From: a virus
DNA length: 34,181 bases
Virus record (IMG/VR): IMGVR_UViG_3300017733_000020
Coordinates: 1 to 34,181 of that record
Reading direction: 5' to 3' (one strand)
Part shown: piece by piece, positions 280-30,153 of the stretch
Numbering within the stretch: position 1 is the stretch's first letter
Layout: each line of letters opens with the position of its first letter
Program-made: the position numbers and the translations under genes
Notes under the pieces: generated by a model
Seen by the model: the letters and a program-made list of their open reading frames with translations, nothing else
What the model was told of the DNA's origin: nothing
The model's database searches: none

Positions 280-1465
280 GGATTTTTATGAGAGTACTAA
301 AAATCTTTGCACAAGTAATTTATTCACTAAGGATTTAAGAAAGATTAAACAGGTAGTTGATAATGCAATGTCTGATTATCAACGTGACCTACAGCTAGAC
401 GAGGTTAAAGGTTTATTCTTTACATCTAATCCAACACTAACTACATCTCAAAAGCAACAGTTTAATTTATATTTTAAGCAGATAGATAATGCATCAGCCG
501 TAGGCATTGATGTAGCTACTGACTTACTATCTAATTTAAACAGGCAGTATGTGGGAGAGGTTGTAGCTAATCTAGGATTTCAATATGTTAATGGGGATCA
601 GACAACACTTGAACCTTTGAAAAATATTATTGAGAGTTACCAAGATAATTTTATGCCCTCTGTTAAGACAGACTTTGTGGACAATAGTGTTGAGGGTTTA
701 ATAGCTAGTGCTAGTAGTAGTAACAAGTGGCAGTTCAACATCCCCTCTTTGTTTCAAGGTGTGAATGGACTTGACAATGGGATGCTGTTTGTCATAGGTG
801 CTAGATCAAATGTAGGTAAGTCTAGTTTCCATGCGACTCTTTGTGCTAGTCCAAATGGTTGGGCTAGTCAGGGTGCTAGGATTCTTATCTTATGCAATGA
901 GGAAAAGCCTGAGAGAATAGCATCAAGATATATGACAGCCTGTACAGGTATGACTATGAAACAAATTATCAAGGACAAGAATGAGGCTCATAGATTGTAT
1001 GATCCTGTCAGGGATAATTTAAAATTCTTAGATGCCACAGGTAAGCCTATGAGTTGGGCAGAGGCAGTAATAAAAAGTTACAAGCCTGACATAGTTGTCA
1101 TGGATATTGGTAGTAAGTTTTCTGAAGAGGGAGCTAACACTAATAACCATGAAGCACTAAAAGCCAATGCAATTTATGCTAGGAATATAGGTAAGATGTA
1201 TGGCTGTTTAGTTGTTTACTGCACTCAGTTATCAGCAGAGGCAGAGGGTAAGATTGTTTTATCCCAAGCTATGATTGAGGGTAGTAAAACAGGTCTAGCA
1301 GGAGAGTCGGATCTTATGATTCTTATTGCTAGGAATCCCCCTATGAACGATCAGACTGAAGACGATGGACTAAGGTATCTAAACATTGTCAAGAATAAAA
1401 TATCAGGAGTTCATAGGATTGTTAATTGTGAGTTTGACTTTCATACAGGAGTATATTCATCATGA
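245..1465 (+). CDS. Replicative DNA helicase (DnaB/T7 gp4B-like)
   Basis: A 406-residue RecA-fold helicase that would unwind DNA 5' to 3' at the phage fork as a hexameric ring. Motifs seen: Walker A GARSNVGKSS at residues 185-194, the catalytic-glutamate region LCNEEKPER (about 216-224), Walker B VVMD at 284-287, the Q-loop YCTQLS (325-330), and GSKTGLAGESDLMILI near 346-361, which matches the DnaB H4 region. The N-terminal 150 residues are poorly conserved and would link to the primase or loader. The ATG at 245 is preceded by AAAGGA at 234-239 with 5-base spacing, and the start lies within the end of the primase gene, suggesting coupled synthesis of two separate proteins. The stop overlaps the next start by 4 bases (ATGA). 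Confidence 0.88.
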   Translation: MEHSLLKSLLSKDFYESTKNLCTSNLFTKDLRKIKQVVDNAMSDYQRDLQLDEVKGLFFTSNPTLTTSQKQQFNLYFKQIDNASAVGIDVATDLLSNLNRQYVGEVVANLGFQYVNGDQTTLEPLKNIIESYQDNFMPSVKTDFVDNSVEGLIASASSSNKWQFNIPSLFQGVNGLDNGMLFVIGARSNVGKSSFHATLCASPNGWASQGARILILCNEEKPERIASRYMTACTGMTMKQIIKDKNEAHRLYDPVRDNLKFLDATGKPMSWAEAVIKSYKPDIVVMDIGSKFSEEGANTNNHEALKANAIYARNIGKMYGCLVVYCTQLSAEAEGKIVLSQAMIEGSKTGLAGESDLMILIARNPPMNDQTEDDGLRYLNIVKNKISGVHRIVNCEFDFHTGVYSS

Positions 1466-3066
1466 ACTACATATCAGTATGTTCTGGAATAGAGGCGGCT
1501 ACTGTAGCTTGGAATAAACTAGGGTGGAATCCTCTAGGTTTTTCTGAGGTAGATAAGTTTCCGTCTGCTGTTCTGCAACACCATTACCCAAACGTGCCTA
1601 ACTTAGGTGACATGACTAACTACAAGGAGTGGAACATAAATGAATCAGTTGACCTTATTATCGGAGGAACACCATGCCAATCGTTCAGTATCTCAGGACT
1701 CAGGAAAGGACTTGAAGACCCAAGGGGAAACCTTGCCCTCACCTATATTGGATTACTTGACCACTTTAAACCCAAATATTTCATCTGGGAAAATGTCCCT
1801 GGAGTTTTGTCCTCTAACAAAGGAGAAGACTTTAGTTCCTTCATCAGGGCGGTTCAAGAAATCAGGTATGGGTTCGCCTACAGAGTTTTGGATGCTCAAT
1901 ACTTCGGAGTACCCCAAAGACGTAAAAGAGTCTTTGTTGTTGGATGTTCTTCAGGCGACTGGAGAAGTGCCGCAGAGATACTCTTTGAGTCCGAAAGCCT
2001 GTCGAGGGATACTGAGGAGAGCAGACAAAAGGGGAAAGACTCTACCAAAGAAACTAGAGGAAGCTCTACTACAGACAACAGGTGGCCTGCGAGAATAAGT
2101 AACACACTTGATGTAGCTTATCACGATAAGTTGGGGTTAGAAGATCAACATATAAATGCCGACTGTCCTAAGTTTGTACCTACTGTATATGAATCCCATC
2201 CTAATGATTCTAGAGTTACAGACATGGGAGAAACTTGTACAACTGTAACTGCTAGATGGGGTACAGGTGGTAACAATACACCTTTAGTAAAAGTTGGAGA
2301 TATAACTGAGGAAGTTAAAGTTCGTAAACATAAAGTTGATATAGATAATCTACAACAATTGTTGAGAACTTGTAAATCCAACAGCAAAAAAACCAACAAA
2401 CAAATAGCTGAAGAGTTATCTATACCTGTGACAAAAGTTGAGCATTGGTTTAGGACAGACTCTAGCTTTGCTATACCTTCAGATGATGTTTGGTTCGATC
2501 TAAAAAAATGTTTAGATATTAAAGATGATACATTTGATGATCAGATTATGGAGTTTGAATACAAGGATGGTGTATTTGAATCTAGCCAACGTGTTTATGA
2601 TTCCACAGGTAAAGCACCTACTCTCACAGCTACGAATGATAAACAATTAATTCATCACAAAGAACCTATTTTAGGTGGTCAACATCCCAATGCTGCAGTT
2701 GGAGATGGAGTAGCTCCAACTTTAACTAATGCTATGGGTTCAGGTGGAGGACATATACCATTAGTAGCCCCTAAGTCTGTAATTAGAAGACTGACACCTG
2801 TAGAATGTGAAAGACTACAAGGGTTTCCATGTGGATATACTGAGATACCTTATAACAATAGACCTCATACACCTGACGGACACAGGTATAAAGCACTAGG
2901 CAATAGCATGGCTGTGCCTGTTATCAGATGGTTAGGTGAGAGAATAAATGGTATTGATGCTAGGAGCAAGGTAAGATATGTAGGTAGTGCTAATGCTTCA
3001 AGACAAAAGTTTGCCACAACAATGGGTACAAATTTAGGAGAAAAGAAAAATGGAACTAGTACTTGA
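1462..3066 (+). CDS. C5-cytosine DNA methyltransferase with composite target-recognition region
   Basis: A 534-residue enzyme that transfers a methyl group from S-adenosylmethionine to carbon 5 of cytosine in DNA. Conserved motifs in order: motif I SVCSGIEAA (5-13), motif IV GGTPCQSFS (68-76) with catalytic C72, motif VI ENV (110-112), motif VIII QRRKRVFVVG (152-161), motif IX RRLTPVE (442-448) and motif X YKALGNSMAVPV (476-487). Between VIII and IX is a long variable region (about 165-440). It holds three short copies of a Thr/Gly-rich segment (near 256-276, 383-397 and 414-435) and, between the first and second, a helix-turn-helix-like stretch (288-370, core NKQIAEELSIPVTKVEHWF). The likely role is protection of phage DNA from host restriction, or marking of phage against host DNA; no partner endonuclease is adjacent. 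The start overlaps the helicase stop. Confidence 0.92.
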   Translation: MNYISVCSGIEAATVAWNKLGWNPLGFSEVDKFPSAVLQHHYPNVPNLGDMTNYKEWNINESVDLIIGGTPCQSFSISGLRKGLEDPRGNLALTYIGLLDHFKPKYFIWENVPGVLSSNKGEDFSSFIRAVQEIRYGFAYRVLDAQYFGVPQRRKRVFVVGCSSGDWRSAAEILFESESLSRDTEESRQKGKDSTKETRGSSTTDNRWPARISNTLDVAYHDKLGLEDQHINADCPKFVPTVYESHPNDSRVTDMGETCTTVTARWGTGGNNTPLVKVGDITEEVKVRKHKVDIDNLQQLLRTCKSNSKKTNKQIAEELSIPVTKVEHWFRTDSSFAIPSDDVWFDLKKCLDIKDDTFDDQIMEFEYKDGVFESSQRVYDSTGKAPTLTATNDKQLIHHKEPILGGQHPNAAVGDGVAPTLTNAMGSGGGHIPLVAPKSVIRRLTPVECERLQGFPCGYTEIPYNNRPHTPDGHRYKALGNSMAVPVIRWLGERINGIDARSKVRYVGSANASRQKFATTMGTNLGEKKNGTST

Positions 3067-7658: not shown

Positions 7659-7972
7659 GTCAATTAAAAGATGATTTGTATAATTGGGAGAAACAAAATG
7701 ATGAGTTTTGGAAAAAAGAAAAAGGAAGTATATATAATGTTGATGTAGTTAATCACCCTCCTCATTATAATAAAGGCAAGTATGAAACTATAGATGTAAT
7801 TGTAGATACATTAGGTGACTACGAAGCAATATCATATTGTCAAGGAAACTGTATCAAGTATTTAATAAGAATGTGGCATAAAGGAAGTGCCTTAGAAAAT
7901 GCTGAGAAATGTTTATGGTACTTAAATAAAATGATTGAGCTACTAAAAAAAACTAAAGGGAAAAATTGGTAA
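7655..7972 (+). CDS. DUF3310-family protein (related to part of T7 gp1.7)
   Basis: 105 residues. Residues from about 32 carry the DUF3310 signature: VNHPPHYNKGKYETIDVI, then YCQGNCIKYLIRMWHKG, then ENAEKCLWYLNKMI. The family is widespread in phages; T7 gp1.7, which carries a related domain, has been reported as a nucleoside monophosphate kinase, so a part in nucleotide supply is plausible here beside NrdA. No P-loop is visible. The start is TTG at 7655, overlapping the upstream stop (TTGA); the strong ribosome site GAGGGAGA just upstream decides this start. The N-terminal 30 residues are a charged extension (NWEKQNDEFWKKEKG). Confidence 0.78.
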   Translation: MSQLKDDLYNWEKQNDEFWKKEKGSIYNVDVVNHPPHYNKGKYETIDVIVDTLGDYEAISYCQGNCIKYLIRMWHKGSALENAEKCLWYLNKMIELLKKTKGKNW

Positions 7973-9735
7973 TGGATACTATAAGTTATAGTGGTATTAA
8001 CATTTGTTACACTAGAGATATAGATTTATCAGATCAAGCTAAAGAACTACTGAGAGATTACTATATGCTTAAGCATGAGACATCTCCTCAAGAAGCTTTT
8101 GCTAGAGCATCTGTTGCATATTGTGAAGGTGACTTAAAATTTGCACAACGTATATATGATTATGCTAGTAAGAGATGGTTTATGTTTGCTAGTCCTGTCC
8201 TTAGTAATGCACCTAACATAGGTAAAAAGTGGAAAGCTTTACCTATATCTTGTTTCTTAACTTATGTAGGTGATACATTACAAGATTTAATCTCACATAA
8301 TTCTGAGGTTGCATGGTTATCTGTTAAAGGTGGTGGGGTTGGGGGTCACTGGTCTGATGTGAGGGCAGTCGGTGATAAATCCCCTGGCCCTATTCCTTTT
8401 CTAAAAGTTGTTGACTCACAAATGACAGCATACAAACAAGGTAAAACTAGGAAAGGTAGCTATGCAGCATACATGGACGTTTCTCACCCTGACATTGTAG
8501 AGTTTATTAATTTTAAATTACCCACAGGTGGTGATGCTAATCGTAAATGTTTTAATTTATTTAATGCTGTTAATGTAACAGATAAGTTTATGAAAGCTGT
8601 AGAAACTGATGGTATGTGGGAGTTAAAAGATCCTGACTTAAATAGTATAGACTATGTAAGAGATACTATTAGAGCTAGAGATTTATGGCAACGTATATTA
8701 GAAGCTAGGTTTAGAACAGGCTCACCTTATATAAACTTTATTGATACAGCTAATAAACATTTACCTGAAGAACAAAAGATGTTAGGTTTAAAAATACATG
8801 GTAGTAATTTATGTAATGAAATACATTTAGCTACTAATGAAGAACGTACTGCTGTATGTTGTTTGTCTAGTGTTAATCTAGAAATGTATGATGAGTGGAA
8901 AGACACCACTATGATTAAAGACTTAACTAGATTCTTAGATAATGTATTACAAAAGTTTATTGATAATGCACCTGAAGATTTAGATAAAGCTAAACGTAGT
9001 GCAATAGCTGAACGATCTTTAGGACTAGGTGCTATGGGATTTCATGGCTACTTACAAAAAATGAATATACCTTTTGAGAGTCCTATTGCGAAAGGTCTTA
9101 ACAAACGTATCTTTAGAACTATTAAAATGGAAGCTCTTGAAGAGAGCCGATTGTTAGCTAAAGAAAAAGGTGAGCCATCAGATATGCAAGGTTCAGGTAA
9201 ACGTAATGCACACTTGTTAGCTGTTGCACCTAATGCTAATAGCTCTATCATATGTGGTTGTACACCTAGTATTGAACCTGTTAAGTCTAATGCTTATGTT
9301 CATAGAACTAGAGCAGGATCACACTTAATTAAAAATAAATATTTAGAAAAAGTATTATTAAAGTATCATAAGAATACAGATGAAATGTGGAAGTCTATTA
9401 TAAGTAATGAGGGTTCTGTACAACATTGTGTATTCTTAAATCCATATGAAAGATCTATATTTAAAACAGCATTTGAATTAGATCAGGAGTGGATTGTAGA
9501 ACATGCAGCAGATAGACAAACATTTATATGCCAAGGACAGTCAGTTAATTTATTCTTTCCTGCTGGTAGTGATAAAAGTTATGTTAATTCTGTACATGTA
9601 AGAGCTTGGAAAGCTAACTTAAAGGGTCTGTATTATTTAAGAACTAGTGCAGCAAACCAAGCAGATAAAGTAGGCACTCAGATTCCAAGAGATGCTTTAA
9701 AAGATGCAGTAGAATGTGTTGCTTGTGAGGGATAA
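7972..9735 (+). CDS. nrdA: Class I ribonucleotide reductase, large (alpha) subunit
   Basis: A 587-residue catalytic subunit that reduces ribonucleotides to deoxyribonucleotides in the cytoplasm with NrdB. The start is ATG 7972 (TAATG overlap with the previous stop, AAAGGG upstream); a TTG at 7966 is an alternative. Conserved residues, numbered from this ATG: C94 (PISCFL), the N279-L-C281-N-E283 active-site triad, C296 (AVCCLSS) which pairs with C94, the tyrosine pair Y554-Y555 (GLYYLRT) that carries the radical, and a C-terminal C582-x2-C585 that would be re-reduced by thioredoxin or glutaredoxin. The usual N-terminal ATP-cone of about 90 residues is absent, so dATP feedback inhibition at that site should be missing. 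Class I is inferred from the downstream NrdB. Confidence 0.96.
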   Translation: MDTISYSGINICYTRDIDLSDQAKELLRDYYMLKHETSPQEAFARASVAYCEGDLKFAQRIYDYASKRWFMFASPVLSNAPNIGKKWKALPISCFLTYVGDTLQDLISHNSEVAWLSVKGGGVGGHWSDVRAVGDKSPGPIPFLKVVDSQMTAYKQGKTRKGSYAAYMDVSHPDIVEFINFKLPTGGDANRKCFNLFNAVNVTDKFMKAVETDGMWELKDPDLNSIDYVRDTIRARDLWQRILEARFRTGSPYINFIDTANKHLPEEQKMLGLKIHGSNLCNEIHLATNEERTAVCCLSSVNLEMYDEWKDTTMIKDLTRFLDNVLQKFIDNAPEDLDKAKRSAIAERSLGLGAMGFHGYLQKMNIPFESPIAKGLNKRIFRTIKMEALEESRLLAKEKGEPSDMQGSGKRNAHLLAVAPNANSSIICGCTPSIEPVKSNAYVHRTRAGSHLIKNKYLEKVLLKYHKNTDEMWKSIISNEGSVQHCVFLNPYERSIFKTAFELDQEWIVEHAADRQTFICQGQSVNLFFPAGSDKSYVNSVHVRAWKANLKGLYYLRTSAANQADKVGTQIPRDALKDAVECVACEG

Positions 9736-10774: not shown

Positions 10775-10798
10775 AGGCTCATTCGAGCCTTTATTTTT
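10775..10798 (+). terminator. Rho-independent terminator after the nrdA unit
   Basis: A perfect 6-bp stem AGGCTC/GAGCCT with the tetraloop ATTC, followed by TTATTTTT. It ends the transcription unit of the replication genes and lies only 14 bases before nrdB, so nrdB and the cytochrome gene would be made by read-through or attenuation unless an unrecognised promoter lies in 10722-10775. Confidence 0.85.
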
Positions 10799-10811: not shown

Positions 10812-11798
10812 ATGAGTCTTACAAATCCCTCAGTAGTGTACAAGCCTTTTAAATATCCGTGGGCTGTAGAGTTTGCAGTACAGTCAGAGAAAGCCCATTG
10901 GGGTGAATGGGAAGCTAAGTTACAGGATGATGTAGCACAATGGCAGTCAGGTAAATTAACTGGAGCAGAAAAGAATCATATAACTCAGATACTTAGGTTG
11001 TTTACTCAAAGTGATGTAGCAGTAGGTACTAATTATCTTGAGTACTATATACAGAAATTTAAGAACAATGAGATTAGAGCTATGCTTACTAGCTTTACTA
11101 ATAGAGAGTTTGTGCATCAAAGAAGCTATGCATTACTTAATGATACTTTAGGATTACCTGAAGAAGAATACTCAGCTTTCCTAGATTATAAACAGATGAA
11201 AGATAAGATAGAGTTTATGAGTGACATAGATGTTACTACTCTATCAGGGTTAGGAAAATCTTTAGCTAGATCCGTAATGAATGAGGGTATGTCTTTGTTC
11301 TCAGCCTTTGCTATGCTACTTAACTATCAAAGAACAGGTAAGATGAAAGGCATGTGTGAGATTGTAGAGTGGTCAGTACGAGATGAGACTATGCATTGTG
11401 AGGGCATGGTTAAATTGTTTAGAGAGTTTTGTAAAGAACATCCAAGAATAGTTACAGATGAATTTAAGAAAGATATATATCAAATGTTTAGAGATGGTGT
11501 TAAGTTAGAAGATGCTGTAGTAGATACAGCCTTTGAGATGGGTGCTGTTAAAGGTCTTACTGCTGATCAAGTTAAGCATTACATTAGGTACATAGCAGAT
11601 AGAAGACTAATTCAGTTGGGATTAAAAGGAAACTTCAAGGTTAAAGAAAATCCTCTTGAGTGGCTTGATTGGATAGTGGGTGGTGATACCCTTAAGAATT
11701 TCTTTGAGGGTGTTGTGACTGACTACAATGCGTCAGGAATGACAGGTGATTGGGGTTGGGGAGACTCAATTAAAAAAGAAGAAAGGATTGCTGCATGA
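10812..11798 (+). CDS. nrdB: Class Ia-type ribonucleotide reductase, small (beta) subunit
   Basis: A 328-residue diiron protein that makes the radical used by NrdA. Metal ligands by alignment with E. coli NrdB: D68 (TQSDVAVG), E99 and H102 (NREFVHQRSY), E158 (SVMNEGMS), E192 and H195 (RDETMHCEG). Y106, four residues after H102, corresponds to the tyrosyl-radical Y122, so it is a tyrosyl-radical (Ia/Ib) type. ATG 10812 is preceded by a strong AAGGAG at 10801-10806. It is separated from nrdA by three small genes and a terminator. Its stop overlaps the cytochrome start (ATGA), so the two proteins are translated together. Confidence 0.96.
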   Translation: MSLTNPSVVYKPFKYPWAVEFAVQSEKAHWGEWEAKLQDDVAQWQSGKLTGAEKNHITQILRLFTQSDVAVGTNYLEYYIQKFKNNEIRAMLTSFTNREFVHQRSYALLNDTLGLPEEEYSAFLDYKQMKDKIEFMSDIDVTTLSGLGKSLARSVMNEGMSLFSAFAMLLNYQRTGKMKGMCEIVEWSVRDETMHCEGMVKLFREFCKEHPRIVTDEFKKDIYQMFRDGVKLEDAVVDTAFEMGAVKGLTADQVKHYIRYIADRRLIQLGLKGNFKVKENPLEWLDWIVGGDTLKNFFEGVVTDYNASGMTGDWGWGDSIKKEERIAA

Positions 11799-12094
11799 GA
11801 TTAATCTTATTAGTATCCTTACTTTTTAATCAAGTATTTGCAGGTGATATAAAACTAGGTGAAGCAAAGTTTATGAAAAACTGTAAACAATGTCATGGCC
11901 CAGCAGGTATGGGCCTAGCTAGTTATCCGAAAGTGTCAGGAAATAGTATAGAATATACAACTGATAAATTAAAAAAGTATAGAGATGGTATTGAGATAGG
12001 GCCGAACTCATCCTTAATGATAATGATGGCTAGGTCTTTATCAGATACAGATATAAAAAACTTAGCTACATATTTAAAAGATGCAAAAAGATAA
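11795..12094 (+). CDS. Secreted class I c-type cytochrome (c4/c553-like)
   Basis: 99 residues. The N-terminus MRLILLVSLLFNQVFA is a signal peptide with cleavage expected after A16, so the mature protein of about 83 residues would be exported to the periplasm. C30-K-Q-C33-H34 is the haem-attachment motif, with haem joined to both Cys and H34 as axial ligand; GPAGMGLASYPKVSG follows as in c4/c553 cytochromes. The C-terminal LSDTDIKNLATYLK helix is typical, and a Met in the SLMIMM stretch (most likely M75) would be the sixth ligand. Maturation would need the host haem-attachment system. The start overlaps the nrdB stop (ATGA), so it is part of the phage operon. Likely role: single-electron carrier that modifies host respiration during infection; this is inference. 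Confidence 0.9.
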   Translation: MRLILLVSLLFNQVFAGDIKLGEAKFMKNCKQCHGPAGMGLASYPKVSGNSIEYTTDKLKKYRDGIEIGPNSSLMIMMARSLSDTDIKNLATYLKDAKR

Positions 12095-12103
12095 CAGTTT
12101 ATT

Positions 12104-12202
12104 ATGATTAAATTTATACTTTGGTGTATGGCATTTTATATTGCTGCTATAAACCCTACAATGTTTGCAGGGCTGTATGTTTATTATATGTCTACAGGTT
12201 AA
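12104..12202 (+). CDS. Putative 32-residue membrane microprotein
   Basis: A short frame starting 9 bases after the cytochrome stop: MIKFILWCMAFYIAAINPTM followed by FAGLYVYYMSTG. It is almost entirely hydrophobic and could span the membrane once. No clear ribosome site is visible (the upstream bases are ACAGTTTATT), so expression would rely on coupling with the cytochrome gene. It overlaps the 3' end of the convergent virion gene by 4 bases. It could be a small membrane partner of the cytochrome, or a chance frame; length and lack of a ribosome site keep the confidence low. Confidence 0.35.
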   Translation: MIKFILWCMAFYIAAINPTMFAGLYVYYMSTG

Positions 12203-29450: not shown

Positions 29451-29705
29451 TTAAGCTACCTTTACTGTTCTATCTGAAGATGTAGTTGATCTATGTACAT
29501 GAACTGTCCTACGTCTTTCATAGTTATCAGCTACTGCTGTATAATCAAATTGTGTTGCAGTAATACTTTCTTCACCTAATGATGATGTTGCTTTAACTCC
29601 ATCAGGTATAATAGTTCTACTATTTATAGTTCCATAAACAGATGTACCATATACAGCAACACCATATACTTCTCCTGTACTATCTATTAAAGTAACTGTA
29701 GCCAT
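29451..29705 (-). CDS. Small structural-region protein of unknown function
   Basis: 84 residues, beta-rich. It contains a repeated VYG motif (EVYGVAVYGTSVYGTINS) and a basic C-terminus (ERRRTVHVHRSTTSSDRTVK). A similar AVYGGRL/TSTYGTAVYGG stretch occurs near the C-terminus of the nozzle-like protein, suggesting the two share a surface element. Probably a minor virion protein, judged from its position. Confidence 0.6.
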   Translation of the reverse strand: MATVTLIDSTGEVYGVAVYGTSVYGTINSRTIIPDGVKATSSLGEESITATQFDYTAVADNYERRRTVHVHRSTTSSDRTVKVA

Positions 29706-29709
29706 TTAT

Positions 29710-30153
29710 TTAGTCAATCCTTATAATAGCTGTAGTACTATCTGCTGTAGGAAAACCTACTATAAAATCAGCAGTTGTTGTTGTTTTATCTGCACTAAAA
29801 TCTAATACACATACAGCATTAGTAGTGTCAGATGTACCACTTGTAGTTGTGTTATATACTAAAGCACCTCTTACTGTTACAGAAGCATTAGTAAATGTAG
29901 CATTATCAAAACTAGTAAATGCTACTGTGCCTGATGTAGTAGCAGTCTTATTAGTTAAACCTAATCCACCACTTGTATATCCTGCACCTGCTACTTCTCC
30001 ACTAGTAGTATAACTTGTAGTACCTGCACTTAATGCTGCACCTGAACTATACAAAGCAATTTTAAAAGTATGTCCACCAGAAACAGAAAAGTCATGCTTA
30101 CCTTCAAGCAATTCTTTTTTAAATGATGTACATAAAGCTTGTGTTATTGCCAT
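29710..30153 (-). CDS. Minor structural protein, beta-rich
   Basis: 147 residues. MAITQALCTSFKKELLEGKH, then TFKIALYSS, TSYTTSGEVAGAGYTSGG, VTVRGALVYNT and AVCVLDFSADKTTT form a recognisable pattern shared by many phage virion proteins of unknown exact place (head or tail surface). It is rich in Thr, Ser, Gly and Ala. It is the first gene after the terminator at 30166-30203. Confidence 0.7.
   Translation of the reverse strand: MAITQALCTSFKKELLEGKHDFSVSGGHTFKIALYSSGAALSAGTTSYTTSGEVAGAGYTSGGLGLTNKTATTSGTVAFTSFDNATFTNASVTVRGALVYNTTTSGTSDTTNAVCVLDFSADKTTTTADFIVGFPTADSTTAIIRID

Follow-up and report, generated by a model that had tools for sequence, protein, structure and literature searches.

What does a phage gain from a cytochrome c gene, and which partner does the encoded protein serve? 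We addressed this question for a stretch of viral DNA of 34,181 bases, which is one whole IMG/VR record and is referred to here as the window. A first-pass annotation had noted a CKQCH-containing cytochrome gene whose ATG overlaps the nrdB stop codon, and had proposed a soluble electron carrier that might be linked to the oxygen-using class Ia ribonucleotide reductase (RNR). Our analysis confirmed the gene and the ATGA overlap. For this conserved phage cytochrome c, the relatives in cells suggest a connection with PQQ sugar oxidation and not with the adjacent RNR.

Counterparts of its polymerase, its capsid protein and its order of genes place the window among the HMO-2011-type podoviruses. 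The polymerase (59% identical to that of phage HMO-2011) and the capsid protein (72%) are close to those of Puniceispirillum phage HMO-2011 and of the Roseobacter phages CRP. Genes run as in HMO-2011: helicase, (methylase), polymerase, endonuclease I and RNR, followed by convergent structural genes. The C-5 cytosine DNA methylase gene inserted between helicase and polymerase (positions 1462–3066, plus strand; PF00145, 5.6e-58) is a feature of the window that HMO-2011 lacks. Cultured hosts of HMO-2011-type phages are SAR116, Roseobacter and SAR11 HTCC1062 (PMC9038755). Host contamination was rejected as the source of the cytochrome gene, as phage genes flank it on both sides in many contigs. 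With the HMO-2011-like polymerase and capsid protein and the homologues in 26 other contigs, this agrees with the earlier view of an integral phage gene rather than flanking host DNA. A terminator-like hairpin lies upstream of nrdB (Table 1), and from there nrdB and the cytochrome gene may be co-transcribed as a two-gene unit of their own; such co-transcription would set timing, not function.

Table 1. Features of the nrdB–cytochrome region in the window.
Feature	Position	Strand	Evidence
nrdA, ribonucleotide reductase large subunit	7966..9735	+	PF02867, 3.8e-116
Terminator-like hairpin upstream of nrdB	10775..10790	+	Pattern scan, 2 found vs 0.5 expected
nrdB, ribonucleotide reductase small subunit	10812..11798	+	PF00268, 8e-72
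Secreted-looking class I cytochrome c, GSDH-linked subfamily	11795..12094	+	99 aa, ATG start
Putative signal peptide MRLILLVSLLFNQVFA, residues 1–16	11795..11842	+	Read from sequence
CKQCH haem attachment motif, residues 30–34	11882..11896	+	One CXXCH in 99 aa
Met75, presumed distal haem ligand, within NSSLMIMMA	12017..12019	+	Invariant in 22 sequences; aligns with c4 axial Met region

The protein matched Pfam Cytochrom_C (PF00034) at 6.3e-11 and 43.9 bits, against a curated cut-off of 21.3, and Cytochrome_CBB3 at 1.4e-8. Cys30, Cys33, His34 and Met75 were invariant in 22 aligned sequences, and Met75 is presumed to be the sixth haem ligand. By sequence, the nearest solved structure was a Thioalkalivibrio paradoxus cytochrome c (PDB 8yts; 2.8e-20), followed by c4 and c552–c554 proteins. 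The AlphaFold model, of moderate confidence (mean pLDDT 75), is weak around the haem loop because haem is absent from it; its best fold match was also 8yts (TM 0.62–0.73), and 1cno and 2zzs matched as well. On its CXXCH motif, C-terminal Met, profile score and predicted fold, the protein is a class I cytochrome c (PF00034). The c4/c553-type C-terminal helix described earlier is present in the model (residues 84–96), but the c4 identity was rejected, since a c4 needs two haem domains and the 99 residues hold a single CXXCH. By eye, the N-terminus is signal-peptide-like, with a hydrophobic core and a VFA-type cleavage site just before GD, and the alignment showed that this hydrophobic stretch is kept in relatives. 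From these features we infer export and covalent haem loading, and a soluble electron carrier is still the best reading of this secreted-looking class I cytochrome.

Two scans of viral contigs returned 26 other IMG/VR contigs with a homologue, 57–100% identical. No match was found among the 50,697 phage records of INPHARED, in agreement with the earlier remark that cytochromes c are uncommon in phages, and the cultured HMO-2011 and HTVC033P genomes carry no such gene. The main text of a genome survey of HMO-2011-type phages mentions iscU and erpA, and the word cytochrome is absent from it (PMC9038755). The contigs fall into several phage types. nrdAB and the cytochrome occur together in HMO-2011-type contigs (the window, L002–L006, L010, L011, L013–L016 and L023), while a related phage type has a class II RNR upstream of the cytochrome (L007–L009, RNR-II domain found); L012 has downstream genes in common with the latter. 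Eight contigs are from T4-like myoviruses (L017–L021, L117, L121 and L122; L018 lies on a contig of 144 kb); two neighbouring genes checked in this group matched T4-like cyanophages and pelagimyophages. L022 carries tail-type genes, and the short contig L118 was left untyped.

In a tree built from an 85-column alignment, 23 of the 26 phage sequences formed one clade (support 100/98), whose stem is long (0.71) and which spans both podoviruses and T4-like myoviruses. L022 and the L121/L122 pair were placed outside this clade, near cellular sequences, and may represent two further acquisitions, fewer being possible with an alignment of 85 columns. Pairwise dN/dS among the phage cytochromes had a median of 0.10, which indicates purifying selection and hence a maintained gene rather than a chance one. 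We rejected a recent isolated import from a host, given the separate, supported clade and the 26 other contigs that carry the gene. With the haem ligands unchanged in the aligned set as well, the refuting outcome named in the first-pass annotation, absence from related phages or loss of ligands among them, did not arise. Phages have thus had the cytochrome gene for a long time and have maintained it.

The slot after nrdB proved to be variable. In NrdB relatives 94–98% identical to the window it was empty or held other cargo or other short genes: in L146 a convergent gene runs right up to the nrdB stop, and in L150 and its kin the slot contains a 226-codon ORF of a different kind. Within a set of 80 contigs, the cytochrome was absent from all those with NrdB below 85% identity. 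An MT-A70 methylase lies between nrdB and the cytochrome in L011, and the stretch immediately 5' of the cytochrome in this contig is found again in L012, which belongs to the other RNR type, a pattern resembling cassette exchange. Because its contents vary among close relatives and show this cassette-like exchange, the position after nrdB is best described as a cargo slot, a hot spot in HMO-2011-type phages, and the coupling of the cytochrome to nrdB appears mostly positional. Functional coupling, by which the cytochrome would supply energy or electrons for nucleotide reduction by the oxygen-using class I RNR, would fit the ATGA overlap seen in the window and several relatives. However, the two proteins would act in opposite compartments (periplasm vs cytosol), L007–L009 have the same cytochrome behind a class II RNR, no RNR adjoins it in the T4-like contigs, in several of which IscU/IscA-type genes are the neighbours, and close nrdB relatives have other cargo or nothing in the slot. 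We consider this coupling highly improbable; the slot comparison has already largely refuted a specific link to class I RNR, and the first-pass suggestion did not survive it. As a separate observation, the slot ORF of L150 (4935–5615; likewise in L148–L150) resembles a 2-oxoglutarate oxygenase, a guess from sequence.

In several T4-like contigs, IscU and/or IscA-type genes lie beside the cytochrome (L018 9167–10309; L017 1976–3115; L020 9974–10717; L117 7968–8692; L121 7926–9035; L019 6252–7146). These neighbours would suit an electron sink or redox protection, whereby the cytochrome drains periplasmic electrons or protects against stress, peroxide or reductive, while haem and iron–sulphur groups turn over. 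Such genes are, however, absent around the podoviral copies, and Met-ligated single-haem class I cytochromes are normally electron carriers, so that we regard this reading as improbable. Two further observations were made in these contigs. In L017, L018, L020 and L117, a conserved, secreted-looking protein of 104 aa (VPPPRGIDPVEAK...) precedes the IscU/IscA and cytochrome genes. In L021 (171–845), the cytochrome frame carries on as a thermonuclease-like protein, whose homologue in L017 is a separate gene, the next one. The join, past the distal Met, has apparently cost the cytochrome its C-terminal helix by fusion, unless it is an artefact of assembly or deletion.

The informative pointer to a partner came from cellular genomes. 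A scan of 84,980 genomes gave 80 cytochrome loci, the 39 nearest of which (L024–L062) are mostly from HIMB59-like and other alphaproteobacteria; they do not establish SAR11 as host or donor. A GSDH-family gene (PF07995) lay directly downstream in 36/36 of the nearest loci with downstream DNA, the other three ending at a contig edge and being left out of the count, and beside the cytochrome in none of the 41 more distant loci. This adjacent PQQ-type sugar dehydrogenase, the defining association of the cellular kin, had been missed in the first-pass annotation. Within the HIMB59 order, to which L024 belongs, the cytochrome was found in 21 and GSDH in 20 of 32 genomes, and the two genes adjoined in all 20 genomes with GSDH; the odd genome, with a cytochrome and no GSDH, is probably explained by a partial cytochrome match cut at a contig end. 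Among 385 sampled Alphaproteobacteria, only nine had a cytochrome of the GSDH-linked subfamily.

Among solved structures, the cellular GSDH matched quinoprotein sugar dehydrogenases, soluble glucose dehydrogenase B being one of them, and it retains their HNGG and HRNxQG regions. In addition, pqqE, a gene of PQQ synthesis, scored over the cut-off in 10/12 pair-bearing genomes vs 0/14 controls. Within the HIMB59 order the association was loose (17/21 genomes with the cytochrome vs 5/11 without it, the genomes being incomplete). The natural reading of the gene pairing is that the cellular cytochrome would accept the electrons of a PQQ-dependent sugar dehydrogenase in the periplasm; in the literature, we found no solved or biochemically tested example of a GSDH–cytochrome pair.

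When cellular GSDH-linked sequences alone were used to build a profile, it scored all 26 phage proteins at 122–159 bits, 57–77 bits above the profile of other cytochromes, and for other cytochromes the difference was reversed (−24 to −88 bits). The motif NSxLMxMMA around the distal Met was present in 26/26 phage and 37/37 cellular GSDH-linked sequences, and in 0/23 others. By profile and motif, the phage cytochromes belong to the GSDH-linked subfamily, without its operon. The cellular members beside GSDH in HIMB59-like and other marine proteobacteria (L024, L027, L035) are ~47–59% identical to the window protein; they have CGNCH or CINCH where the window protein has CKQCH, and the phage proteins differ further in lacking a GSDH gene and in forming their own long-stemmed clade. 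The 8yts protein, T. paradoxus cytochrome c546/556 and the closest solved structure by both sequence and fold, is ~46% identical to the phage protein, but has HTALMAPHA in place of NSxLMIMMA; the literature searched on 8yts yielded no useful lead.

None of the phage cytochrome loci tested contained GSDH, a scan of viral contigs with the GSDH alignment found none of the pair type, and the phage records searched gave only four distant matches, from 'Acinetobacter phage MD-2021a', of doubtful nature. As none turned up in the phage loci tested or in the viral-contig scan, the GSDH partner must be the host's. As for the host itself, the phage polymerase matched HIMB59-order genomes only distantly, at ~30% identity and within ~930-codon frames, the kind of frame that a cellular DNA polymerase I would give, and searches of alphaproteobacterial genomes with NrdB and IscU returned no host-diagnostic match.

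The reading that we favour, and hold to be somewhat likely, is that the phage provides the protein to which a host periplasmic PQQ sugar dehydrogenase passes its electrons, and so sustains respiration during infection. It builds on the gene and its ligands, family membership, selection, the distribution among phages and the strict cellular cytochrome–GSDH pairing. The phage cytochrome would be a periplasmic mono-haem class I carrier made without its dehydrogenase, exported during infection and matured by the haem-attachment system of a GSDH-bearing host. It would be reduced by the host PQQ dehydrogenase, and perhaps by further donors in the periplasm, and hand the electrons to the host terminal oxidase. 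As an extra or longer-lasting carrier, it could hold up the proton-motive force when host carrier synthesis stops, to the benefit of the phage, and periplasmic sugar oxidation would need no uptake, phosphorylation or assimilation of the sugar. Against a role with GSDH, the pair is not established in the cultured HMO-2011-type hosts (SAR116, Roseobacter, SAR11 HTCC1062), and pqqE co-occurs only loosely with the cytochrome in the HIMB59 order. Given the stem of 0.71, the partner specificity of the phage clade may also have changed.

The main rival is a general soluble carrier between cytochrome bc1 and a terminal oxidase, accepting electrons from any donor and having no special role with GSDH. 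Small cytochromes of similar kind serve cbb3 and aa3 oxidases, and the class I fold with its ligands, the presence of the gene in phage lineages that may differ in their hosts, and a GSDH partner gene that is never phage-carried would all suit such a carrier. It accounts less well for a subfamily that sits beside GSDH wherever a cellular locus could be tested and for the retention of the signature motif in the phage proteins; we judge it unlikely, though the most serious of the alternatives.

We tentatively suggest, at a little under an even chance, that unrelated marine phages (podo- and T4-like) share a carrier-only cargo that plugs into the periplasmic PQQ sugar dehydrogenase of the host, so that extracellular sugars would be burnt outside the cytoplasm to maintain proton-motive force, with no need for uptake or for carbon metabolism, as a heterotroph counterpart of the photosynthesis carriers of cyanophages. 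Cyanophage plastocyanin (petE) and ferredoxin (petF) are likewise phage-borne electron carriers without the enzyme served (PMC10452541), but they are other proteins on another electron path in photosynthetic hosts, whereas the window cytochrome points to heterotrophic respiration. Little has been described of phage genes that encode respiratory electron carriers of heterotrophs, and we found none reported for the HMO-2011-type group, which has polymerase, capsid protein and gene order in common with the window and whose members HMO-2011 and HTVC033P lack the cytochrome. A conserved cytochrome that occurs in different phage types and goes with one enzyme family in cells points to PQQ dehydrogenases as a host function exploited by phages, and makes it possible to test directly whether phages influence periplasmic oxidation in some of the common streamlined bacteria of the ocean.

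In five alphaproteobacterial loci (L029, L035, L038, L039 and L049), the cytochrome–GSDH pair lies just downstream of an isc-type run that reads, from sequence, iscU-iscA-hscB-hscA-fdx-mnmA and echoes the phage order iscU-iscA-cytochrome. We considered whether the myoviral run had been copied from a host isc-mnmA-cytochrome-GSDH region (L035, L029) and rejected the idea, as IscA is only ~30% identical and phage IscU resembles other alphaproteobacterial types as much as those of HIMB59. In the window, a possible micro-ORF of 32 aa with one probable membrane span starts nine bases past the cytochrome stop (12104..12202, plus strand); its pattern MIKF...FY...P..F.GLYVYY is absent from other relatives apart from L002–L005 and, in a looser form, L010. 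Finally, HTVC033P (L105), a pelagiphage of the HMO-2011-type group, has a haem-related gene of its own, annotated as a putative ferrochelatase (29480–30124).
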